From Bacteroidia bacterium (GTDB lineage Bacteria > Bacteroidota > Bacteroidia > SpSt-205): a stretch of 35,061 bases of DNA. A program made the position numbers and the translations under genes. Shown piece after piece: positions 26,399 through 29,819 of the stretch; within the stretch, counting starts at the first letter, position 1; every line of letters starts with the position of its first letter. The DNA lies in assembly GCA_025054525.1 (NCBI GenBank), contig JANWZJ010000003.1, forward strand, positions 1 through 35,061. The letters are read 5' to 3'. The notes under the pieces are model-generated. The model was given only the letters and a program-made list of their open reading frames with translations. It did no database searches and was not told the DNA's origin.

Positions 26399-28120
26399 AT
26401 GCGGGTAATAGGGCAGGTACTTTTTCCATTCTATAAGCGTTATCCGATTCTAACGGGAGCGGGACTACTTTTAGTAGCTGCCTCCGCCGCCTTAGCCTTG
26501 CTGCCAGGCTGGATGACAGGAGAAGTAGTGAATCACCTCCAACAAATACTCCCCTCCCAGAGTTTGGAAGAGGTATTTCTGCCCATTCTATTAGCACTGG
26601 GCGGGGTATGGTTGCTGGCTATCGTACGCGTATTTACGATGGTGGGCATGCGTCTCACCCTGGTCGTCGTAAGTCGCCGCATAGAACGCGACCATCGCAA
26701 AGGGCTATTTGAGCATTTGCTTCACTGGGATTGGCAAACCCTCCAGCGCTACCCCACAGGCGAACTCATGACCTACTTCACCGAAGACCTCAATCGCTTG
26801 CGAAACTTCACAGGACCAGTCATCCTGTATGGCACACATGTGTTTTTCATGGTAGCCTTTACGGGCATTCTTATGCTCTTCACCGCATGGAAGTTAGCCC
26901 TAGCTGCTCTTTTACCGCTCTGCTTGATAGTGCCTTTGAGCTATCATTTGCGAATGCAGGCACTGCTACGAGGCCATAAGCAACAAGAAGCTTTTGCTTG
27001 GCTTAGTGCGTTTTTACAGCAGGTCTATCCTTATTTGCGTCCGCTTAGAGCGATGGCAGACCCCTTGGCACTCAGCGAAGAATGGCGGCGCCGAGTAGAG
27101 AATCACGCCGAAGCCAGCCTAAGTGTAACTCGTATAGAAGCGCTCCTTCAGCCCCTTACTACACTATTTGTCGGTGTGAGCCTTACGATTGTGCTAATCT
27201 ATGGCGGACTCCAAGTCATAGAAAAAAGGCTCCCACTCGGCATAGTAGCGGCATTTAGTGTGTATGTCCTTCAGCTTATGCATCCACTGGGTTCGCTGGG
27301 GTGGCTCATGAGCATCTTACAGCAAGCCAAGGCCAGCGCCGAACGGCTCCTCCAACTCCAAGAAGCAAAGGGCATTATCACCTATCCCCCTATCAGTCGT
27401 GCCACACCCCAGCATAACGGCTGGCATTGGACGGGGGTTTATTTTGGTCATGAAGCGGGAACTTGGCTTTTTGAAAACTTCTCCGGGCATATCGCCCCCG
27501 GAGAAAAGATAGCCCTATCGCTTCCAACAGCGTCAGGTAAGACTACACTGGCGCGCTTGTTGATTCGGCAGTTAGAGCCGCAGAAGGGTGAGATTTTCTT
27601 CGGTGAAGTGCCGCTCCGAGCCCTTAGCTATGCAGACCTTCGCCGAATAATAGGATATGTACCCCAGCAACCCCTGCTTTTGAGTAGCACTATTATAGAG
27701 AACCTCCGCATAGCTGCACCCCAAGCCTCTCAGAAATCCCTCTGGCAGGCACTGGAATGGGCGGGACTTGCCGAGGAAGTAGCCGGATTACCCCAAGGGC
27801 TTCATACTCCCTTAGGCGTATGGGGGCAGCAAGTGTCAGGTGGTCAGCGCCAGCGCCTCGCTCTGGCAATAGTCCTGCTCCAACGCCCACAGGCTCTCAT
27901 TCTGGATGAAACATTCGCCCCCTTAGACTCTGAAAAAATCCGAGAAATCCTGATGCACTTACAGCATCACTTTAGCCAGGCTACGTGGCTCATTATTACC
28001 CACCGCCAAGAAGTGCGTCCTTTCGTGGAGCGATGGGAAACGGACTTTCAGACTTTTTCTACTGAGTCCCAAGAGATAGGGGCTATGTGGAGAGACAGAC
28101 GCCCCTCCGGTAGAATATGA
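26399..28120 (+). CDS. ABC transporter, fused membrane and ATPase domains
   Basis: The 573-residue half-exporter has an N-terminal transmembrane domain with about six helices (residues 1-310) and a C-terminal nucleotide-binding domain, and would work as a homodimer or heterodimer exporting lipid, peptide or drug-like substrates. The ATPase domain has a Q-loop (GYVPQQPLLL), signature VSGGQRQRLALA, Walker B with catalytic Glu (ALILDET), D-loop and H-loop (IITHR). The Walker A is odd: residues 375-382 read LPTASGKT where GPTGSGKS is usual, so the first two glycines are Leu and Ala while Gly380-Lys381 remain. It starts two bases after the glycosidase, and its last 73 bases overlap the end of the convergent Sua5-DUF488 gene. 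Confidence 0.9.
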   Translation: MRVIGQVLFPFYKRYPILTGAGLLLVAASAALALLPGWMTGEVVNHLQQILPSQSLEEVFLPILLALGGVWLLAIVRVFTMVGMRLTLVVVSRRIERDHRKGLFEHLLHWDWQTLQRYPTGELMTYFTEDLNRLRNFTGPVILYGTHVFFMVAFTGILMLFTAWKLALAALLPLCLIVPLSYHLRMQALLRGHKQQEAFAWLSAFLQQVYPYLRPLRAMADPLALSEEWRRRVENHAEASLSVTRIEALLQPLTTLFVGVSLTIVLIYGGLQVIEKRLPLGIVAAFSVYVLQLMHPLGSLGWLMSILQQAKASAERLLQLQEAKGIITYPPISRATPQHNGWHWTGVYFGHEAGTWLFENFSGHIAPGEKIALSLPTASGKTTLARLLIRQLEPQKGEIFFGEVPLRALSYADLRRIIGYVPQQPLLLSSTIIENLRIAAPQASQKSLWQALEWAGLAEEVAGLPQGLHTPLGVWGQQVSGGQRQRLALAIVLLQRPQALILDETFAPLDSEKIREILMHLQHHFSQATWLIITHRQEVRPFVERWETDFQTFSTESQEIGAMWRDRRPSGRI

Positions 28121-29370
28121 AGTACCCGAATCCCTTTTTGGCTCAGCCGGTCAGCTAATGCAAACCGATGACACCGTCTCGGCTCTCCCTCGGCGCACAT
28201 AAGCACTATTCGTTTAGAGTCTTTCAGTTGCTCTGAGAGAGTCTGCATTAGCAGTTCTTCGGCAGGCAGGTGTAGGTAAGCGACACTCGCTTTTTCTAAC
28301 CATTCTCGGAGGATAGGATAGGAAAAATGAGGCACATATCGGGAATAGGGGGCTTTTCGCACATCTATAAGTAGGCTTACCCCATACCGCGCTAAGAGAC
28401 TCAAAAATCGCTCAGCCGAGTGCGTGCTATGACCAATCGTAAGCACAAAAGGTGAAGCTGCTCTTCGCAGTCTATCTTCTACTGCTTCCCGGTGGGGGAA
28501 AGTCAGAGGTACTCGCTGCACTAAAATGAACTTCGTAGGCTCTCCTTCACATTGATGCAAAGTATCATAGAGCTTAGCAGGACGCGTAAGGAGGTGGGCA
28601 TGCGGACCACAGACAGAGGTTGGAGTAAAAGAGATTAGGGATGCTTCGGGCTCATCAGGTAGCACTTCCCATCCGTAAAAGAGGGGCTTGACCGGTGCAT
28701 AATGACGAGGGAATTGACCAGGGGCTTGCGGCGCAGAGCGGGGCGAAGGAAGAATAATCTCAGTCCCCAGAACTGCTTCTAATGCTTCCCGGCTGATAGC
28801 GCCAGGACGATAAAGTACAAACCGCCCCTCTTCTTCTCCGACGATGGTAGACTCCAAACCTGCTCGACAAGGTCCTCCATCCAGAATAAGCGGAATCTTT
28901 CCCTCAAAGTACTGCCATACATGCGAAGGTTGCGTAGGACTAATGCGGGCAAAGGGATTCGCACTCGGCGCTGCCAAAGGAAAATCTATTTCTTCTAAAA
29001 GGGCTTGGGTGAGGGGATGGGCAGGCGCCCGTAAAGCCACCCGAGGTAATCCTGCCGTAACAATAGAGGGTATTTTGCCCTCATGAGGCAAGAGAATCGT
29101 AAGAGGACCTGGCCAAAACTTCTCCATGAGCAGCCTCGCCCAGTCAGGAATGGGGATACCCAGCTTTTCTACGGCTTCTCTATTTCTTACGTGGACGATA
29201 AGTGGGTCACTGAAGGGGCGTTCCTTAAGCCGAAAGACTTGGGCGACGGTGTGGGGATTGAGCGCGTTTGCTGCCAGACCATATACTGTTTCGGTGGGGA
29301 TAGCGACGACTTCGCCGCTACGCAGTAGATGAGCGGCTTCTTTTATGTTGGAGGTGAGGCGGGTTTCCAT
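28048..29370 (-). CDS. threonylcarbamoyl-AMP synthase (Sua5) fused to DUF488
   Basis: The product has three parts. Residues of about 5-195 are a YrdC/Sua5 catalytic domain (SGEVVAIPTETVYGLAANAL, KERPFSDPLIVHV, APSANPFARISPT), which makes L-threonylcarbamoyl-AMP for the t6A37 tRNA modification. Residues of about 215-305 form the Sua5 regulatory domain, beginning with PGQFPRHYAP. Residues of about 308-425 form a DUF488 domain with TIGHST (311-316), DVRKAPYSR (336-344), CAEGEP (392-397) and CHR (400-402). The DUF488 part lacks the usual LGG insert before the CAE motif, so it is short. The frame is open to 29451, but METRLTSNIKEA at 29370 is the family N-terminus, giving 440 residues. The start overlaps cdd by 28 bases and the end overlaps the ABC exporter by 73 bases. 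Confidence 0.88.
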   Translation of the reverse strand: METRLTSNIKEAAHLLRSGEVVAIPTETVYGLAANALNPHTVAQVFRLKERPFSDPLIVHVRNREAVEKLGIPIPDWARLLMEKFWPGPLTILLPHEGKIPSIVTAGLPRVALRAPAHPLTQALLEEIDFPLAAPSANPFARISPTQPSHVWQYFEGKIPLILDGGPCRAGLESTIVGEEEGRFVLYRPGAISREALEAVLGTEIILPSPRSAPQAPGQFPRHYAPVKPLFYGWEVLPDEPEASLISFTPTSVCGPHAHLLTRPAKLYDTLHQCEGEPTKFILVQRVPLTFPHREAVEDRLRRAASPFVLTIGHSTHSAERFLSLLARYGVSLLIDVRKAPYSRYVPHFSYPILREWLEKASVAYLHLPAEELLMQTLSEQLKDSKRIVLMCAEGEPRRCHRFALADRLSQKGIRVLHILPEGRLSLHIAPISWDSVEKV

Positions 29371-29819
29371 GCAAACGCCAAAGGAAGTAAGCCTTCTGTG
29401 CCTACGAAGCGATATACAGTATCCCCCCGCCCTGCGGTGAGAATAGTCCAAGGGAAGCGGCTATGCTGCTGATATTCATGCATGACCTGCCGACAAGCAC
29501 CACAGGGCATTACAGGCATCTCTAACCGAGGGGCATAGATAGCTAAAATCCTTATCTGTGGGCTCAGACCAGCTGCCCCCACCTGAAAAAGCACAACTCG
29601 CTCTGCACATAATCCACTGGGGTAAGCCGCATTCTCTTGATTATTCCCTGTAAAAATGCGCCCATCCTCTAATACAACCGCGGCTCCTACTGGGAAGTGC
29701 GAATACGGAGCATACGCCTGCTGAGCTACTTTCTGGGCGGCTTCCAGTGCCCTCCGCTCAATCGGCAGAAGCTCGTCCCATACCACTTCCTCATAGAAAT
29801 AGCGCAATTCTCGCCACAC
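29343..29819 (-). CDS. cdd: cytidine deaminase
   Basis: The 158-residue zinc enzyme deaminates cytidine or deoxycytidine to uridine in pyrimidine salvage. The zinc and catalytic motifs are SGLCAERV (Cys and Glu) and MPCGACRQVMHEY (two Cys), with YAPYSHFPVGAA and GNNQENAAYPSGLCAE as the family pattern. The homologous Bacteroidota enzymes have a similar N-terminal extension before the YAPYS motif. The start is a GTG at 29819 preceded by a TACCTTAG promoter-like box, and the gene overlaps the Sua5-DUF488 gene by 28 bases, so the two form an operon divergent from gyrB. Confidence 0.94.
   Translation of the reverse strand: MWRELRYFYEEVVWDELLPIERRALEAAQKVAQQAYAPYSHFPVGAAVVLEDGRIFTGNNQENAAYPSGLCAERVVLFQVGAAGLSPQIRILAIYAPRLEMPVMPCGACRQVMHEYQQHSRFPWTILTAGRGDTVYRFVGTEGLLPLAFAWKPASPPT

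Follow-up and report, generated by a model that had tools for sequence, protein, structure and literature searches.

A Sua5-type threonylcarbamoyl-AMP synthase fused to a shortened DUF488 domain in one family of Bacteroidia

The tRNA modification t6A occurs almost universally, and the essential enzyme that begins its synthesis has been studied in depth. Proteins built of YrdC and Sua5_C domains convert threonine, bicarbonate and ATP into threonylcarbamoyl-AMP, and TsaD, together with TsaB and TsaE, transfers the threonylcarbamoyl group from this intermediate onto A37 of tRNA. In HypF and TobZ, YrdC is found with a Kae1-like domain (PMC10321239, PMC9654439). In contrast to the first enzyme of t6A synthesis, the widespread DUF488 domain has no tested activity in the papers searched, which yielded no assay of any DUF488 protein. 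Here we describe a gene that joins Sua5 to DUF488. The fusion looks previously unreported; no description of it was found in the papers searched.

The gene lies in a window of 35,061 nucleotides from a Bacteroidia bacterium (contig JANWZJ010000003.1), at 28048..29370 on the minus strand, as do all of its features given below. The open frame runs unbroken from an ATG at 29370 to a stop at 28048-28050 and encodes 440 amino acids plus stop (coding part 28051-29370). Residues 15-190 (28801..29328) form the YrdC domain, an L-threonylcarbamoyladenylate synthase (PF01300, E 2.4e-52), and the first part of the protein matches TIGR00057 (NCBIfam) at 175 bits against a cut-off of 123. The Sua5_C domain follows at residues 192-306 (28453..28797; PF03481, E 7.7e-13) with its PGQFPRHYAP linker, and a shortened DUF488 domain occupies residues 309 to 433, approximately (28072..28446; PF04343, E 5.2e-16), as is also seen in an AF2 model. 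All three Pfam matches exceed their curated cut-offs; PF04343 scores 59.8 bits against a gathering cut-off of 22.2, in two pieces, and DUF488-N3a (PF22751) reaches 20.9 bits, below its cut-off of 27. The fused Sua5 part closes with DRLRRA, as is usual, and strand 1 of DUF488 starts only a few residues on, so there is no linker between them. Translation is unlikely to begin at 29451, the TTG of a longer frame, since 12 of 12 family members keep the 'MET' start at 29370. An internal start that would yield DUF488 on its own was likewise rejected, as the family alignment has no conserved ATG, GTG or TTG at the junction.

The join is genuine. Among 119 related genomes searched, the full-length fusion turned up in ten other genomes of the genus and in one other genus of the family; with the window's own, all 12 family genomes carry it. 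The relatives are 53-59% identical to the window protein and none has internal stops. The first-pass annotation had described an unusual single-frame architecture and proposed checking the frame over 28440-28480. Both points held: the Pfam domains are over their cut-offs, and the frame across this interval, followed in the relatives' assemblies, is continuous in 12 independent assemblies. One fusion-bearing genome is a single contig of 2,268,343 bases (KatS3mg025, BPGV01000001). The same frame in 12 genomes, this one included, means that neither a frameshift nor an assembly join produced the fusion, and with two genera represented and the flanking genes conserved, we give no weight to a sequencing or assembly artefact uniting two genes. 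The fusion-bearing relatives are recorded as Bacteroidia MAGs plus one bin labelled Sphingobacterium; from the isolate names we infer a hot-spring origin for the family.

The gene has conserved neighbours. A cytidine-deaminase-like gene upstream (29343..29819, minus strand) overlaps the start of the fusion by 28 bp (29343-29370) and has a 55-65% identical homologue at 10 of 10 family loci. This overlap and the conserved upstream position suggest an operon. An ABC transporter gene (26399..28120, plus strand), also conserved at 10 of 10 family loci, is convergent with the fusion, whose last 73 bp (28048-28120) overlap its end; judging from tblastn end points, most relatives have this overlap too. 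Conservation of the last 24 codons or so of the fusion may thus not stem from DUF488. The active-site codons of DUF488 lie outside the overlap. Divergent gyrB is present at 6 of 10 family fusion loci.

The Sua5 half retains the residues expected of a working enzyme. The catalytic KxR/SxN tetrad, used as a filter for Sua5/TsaC orthologues in PMC10321239, is intact as K49-E-R51 (29218..29226) and S136-A-N138 (28957..28965), with K49, R51, S136 and N138 invariant in 11 aligned fusions. The fusion is the sole Sua5-type protein and the sole DUF488 protein in each of the 12 family genomes. TsaE is present in all 12 and TsaD is over cut-off in 11. Given the single Sua5-type copy, the presence of TsaD and TsaE and the intact tetrad, the fusion protein very likely serves these bacteria as their working t6A enzyme. 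A second, unfused Sua5 that would make the fusion redundant was considered and rejected: the only other YrdC protein resembles YciO and, at about 210-230 amino acids, is short. It was not found in one genome that is 66% complete (G011). Another genome, rated 99% complete (G009), has no full TsaD match, which may be a gap or a real absence.

The DUF488 half preserves a presumed active site. In an alignment of 59 DUF488 domains (11 fused and 48 standalone), 14 core residues are identical: T, G, H, S and H; D, R and P; Y; and C, E, C, H and R. Because the standalone set was retrieved with patterns around TIGHS and CAE..C, the conservation of these two motifs is somewhat inflated. In the window protein, the invariant GHS (residues 313-315, 28426..28434) ends strand 1, DVR (residues 336-338, 28357..28365), with D and R invariant in all 59, ends strand 2, and CAEGEPRRCHR (residues 392-402, 28165..28197), with C, E, C, H and R invariant in all 59, is the presumed Cys active-site loop after strand 4. 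The alignment thus bears out the earlier suggestion that conserved Cys, His and Arg residues fit an active site. The T-GHS-H / D-R-P / Y / C-E-CHR core is kept in 11 of the 12 family genomes. In the remaining one (G007, locus L013), GHS has become NHP and CHR has become CAL in a frame that is otherwise intact; identity to the window protein is 31% in DUF488 versus 73% in YrdC, and Sua5 is intact. This gene is a natural active-site-loss variant of the fused DUF488 (G007:C9). Among the family fusions, median pN/pS is 0.35 for DUF488, 0.28 for YrdC and 0.41 for Sua5_C; classical dN/dS was dropped and only pN/pS used because synonymous sites are saturated. On this measure, constraint on the DUF488 part is about equal to that on Sua5_C, G007 excepted.

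At least 20 residues that would stand between the conserved Tyr and the strand ending in the Cys are missing from the fused domains. The Tyr-to-Cys span is 26-27 residues in fused domains versus 47-68 in the 48 standalone ones, and the LG-x-R pattern, present in 45 of 48 standalone domains (the LG glycine in all 48), is absent from 11 of 11 fused ones. Alignment with standalone members places the missing segment at P369 (28264..28266), and the PF04343 match is split accordingly, covering profile positions 2-51 and then 88-121. The first-pass remark that the domain lacks an LGG-type insert is therefore correct. Many of the standalone genes (L057-L127) stand in tandem as a long and a short copy, and at L124 both are in one frame.

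The DUF488 fold was predicted with AF2 (pLDDT 89.5, pTM 0.83). The model is Rossmannoid, with alternating strands and helices; each core residue falls within one of strands 1 to 4 or directly behind it. Strand 81-85 (model numbering), the fourth, ends in C85, a position for the Cys that rhodaneses and tyrosine phosphatases share. Foldseek against the PDB returned PRL-1, SsoPTP and other Cys phosphatases at probabilities of 0.98-1.00 and TM of about 0.5. The PRL-1 and SsoPTP matches have a probability of 1.00 but an E of about 0.006, SRP GTPases match the model equally well, and none of the PDB fold matches has an E of 0.001 or lower. A viral fold search returned nothing beyond weak phosphatase-like matches, one fused domain weakly matches Pfam Rhodanese (E 0.015), and a sequence search found no solved DUF488 structure. 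The fused Cys loop reads C-x9-R, with a second Cys and a His; that of tyrosine phosphatases is C-x5-R. A published classification reportedly groups DUF488 with RapZ-C and DUF4326, and we take the C-terminal domain of RapZ to be a relative of DUF488. The predicted structure makes a Cys-phosphatase/rhodanese-type class likely rather than proven, because the Foldseek E-values are weak and SRP GTPases appear alongside. The full-length model (pTM 0.49) is too poor for the domain arrangement to be read. Both the fused DUF488 and a standalone member match the PADLOC candidate-defence models PDC-M45B and M19A, and by sequence other DUF488 proteins may therefore serve in defence.

The fused DUF488 domains form one clade (SH-aLRT 99%) that is restricted to this family among the genomes searched, and each is both the only Sua5-type and the only DUF488 copy of its genome. 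In a class sample of 395 genomes, 57 have a DUF488 match; the match is fused only in the 12 family genomes and belongs to separate proteins elsewhere. The sampled sister family (G012) yielded no DUF488. A fusion-wide profile run on 395 phylum genomes, a sample that overlaps the first, matched Sua5 almost everywhere, and among the matches listed none but that of the window's genome extends beyond the end of Sua5_C or its vicinity; weaker fusion matches may lie below those listed. A scan of 84,980 species found only this clade fused among the nearest 80 DUF488 loci; an independent fusion may exist among more distant DUF488 domains. The domain tree gives no clear nearest standalone relative. Two Bacteroidia DUF488 matches align to the fused profile with few gaps and neither is fused to Sua5: one has a short segment, yet bears LG (L135), and the other has broken frames (L136). 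The fusion probably has a single origin, the direct joining of a DUF488 gene to the end of sua5 in the ancestor of this uncultured hot-spring family of Bacteroidia.

Unfused genes give no Sua5-DUF488 link. Only 2 of 68 standalone DUF488 loci, both in Microcystis, have a Sua5 neighbour within about 3 kb, and no DUF488 was found within 1.5 kb of the 18 unfused Sua5 loci. The co-occurrence of unfused neighbours that the first-pass annotation wished to see checked is thus rare at best, and its proposed functional link to tRNA modification gained no support beyond the fusion itself, with the G007 motifs lost as well. In two Microcystis genomes (L103 5036, L111 4117), a gene for a YrdC-like protein of 206 amino acids is found near the DUF488 pair.

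We favour, at a probability of about 0.5, a two-function protein in which a Cys-dependent, phosphate-handling DUF488 domain with an altered pocket is tethered to Sua5. The DUF488 half would be of the rhodanese/tyrosine-phosphatase type, with a Cys as the nucleophile for removing or transferring a phosphate or similar group carried by a nucleotide, a sugar phosphate or the end of an RNA. The trimmed loop of the fused form would open or change the substrate pocket, and the tether would hold the domain beside threonylcarbamoyl-AMP synthesis or beside the tRNA. The C-x9-R loop, the absent LG-x-R and the loss of GHS and CHR in G007 count against this reading. The weakest step, which we put forward tentatively and at less than even odds, is that the fused domain serves t6A: the fusion and the exclusive pairing speak for this role, and the lack of a neighbourhood link in unfused genomes and the G007 decay speak against it. 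It seems unlikely that DUF488 acts within t6A synthesis proper, for instance hydrolysing or recycling adenylate or phosphate species by the Sua5 site or acting on the tRNA. If it did, the protein would be a bifunctional t6A enzyme, and t6A synthesis the first pathway assigned to DUF488, whose relatives are on the PADLOC candidate-defence list.

DUF488 could instead be active or useful in a manner unrelated to t6A, the join securing co-expression and stability of two activities. The missing neighbourhood link, the patchy occurrence of DUF488 in the class and the lack of a match in the sister family sampled all fit this account, as does the decay of the motifs in G007 beside an intact Sua5. Nevertheless, all 12 species retain the fusion, free of a linker and with neither part present separately, which exceeds what a purely neutral join would lead one to expect, and we consider an unrelated activity a serious possibility, somewhat short of an even chance. 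Loss of the LG-x-R segment from all fused members, and the tolerance of G007 for the loss of core motifs, would also suit a catalytically dead accessory domain, a module with a structural or RNA-contacting role, like the RapZ C-terminal domain, that would hold tRNA or TsaD in position. Such a scaffold need not keep the 14 core residues (two Cys, three His and two Arg among them), yet none of these varies among the other 11 fused domains, whose median identity is about 57%, and we rate a dead accessory domain as quite improbable.

The stable natural fusion, with no further copy of either partner in any of these genomes, is a tractable handle on DUF488: one protein offers one presumed active site and a measurable partner reaction, and the G007 variant with its decayed site adds to this. 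Compared with two-domain Sua5 (e.g., PDB 6f87, 9d3h and 2eqa), the fusion has the same YrdC and Sua5_C domains, KxR/SxN tetrad and PG-HYAP linker, and differs in carrying a third domain directly at the C-terminus. HypF and TobZ also join YrdC to another enzymatic domain, but theirs is a Kae1-like carbamoyl-transfer domain and DUF488 is not. The DUF488 half resembles the rhodanese/tyrosine-phosphatase superfamily in strand-helix order and in the Cys that ends strand 4, and is set apart by its long C-x9-R loop and the lack of a significant PDB match. With standalone DUF488 proteins (PF04343), it shares the invariant 14-residue core and a profile match over the cut-off, whereas the junction to Sua5 and the removal of 20 or more residues with LG-x-R distinguish the fused form.
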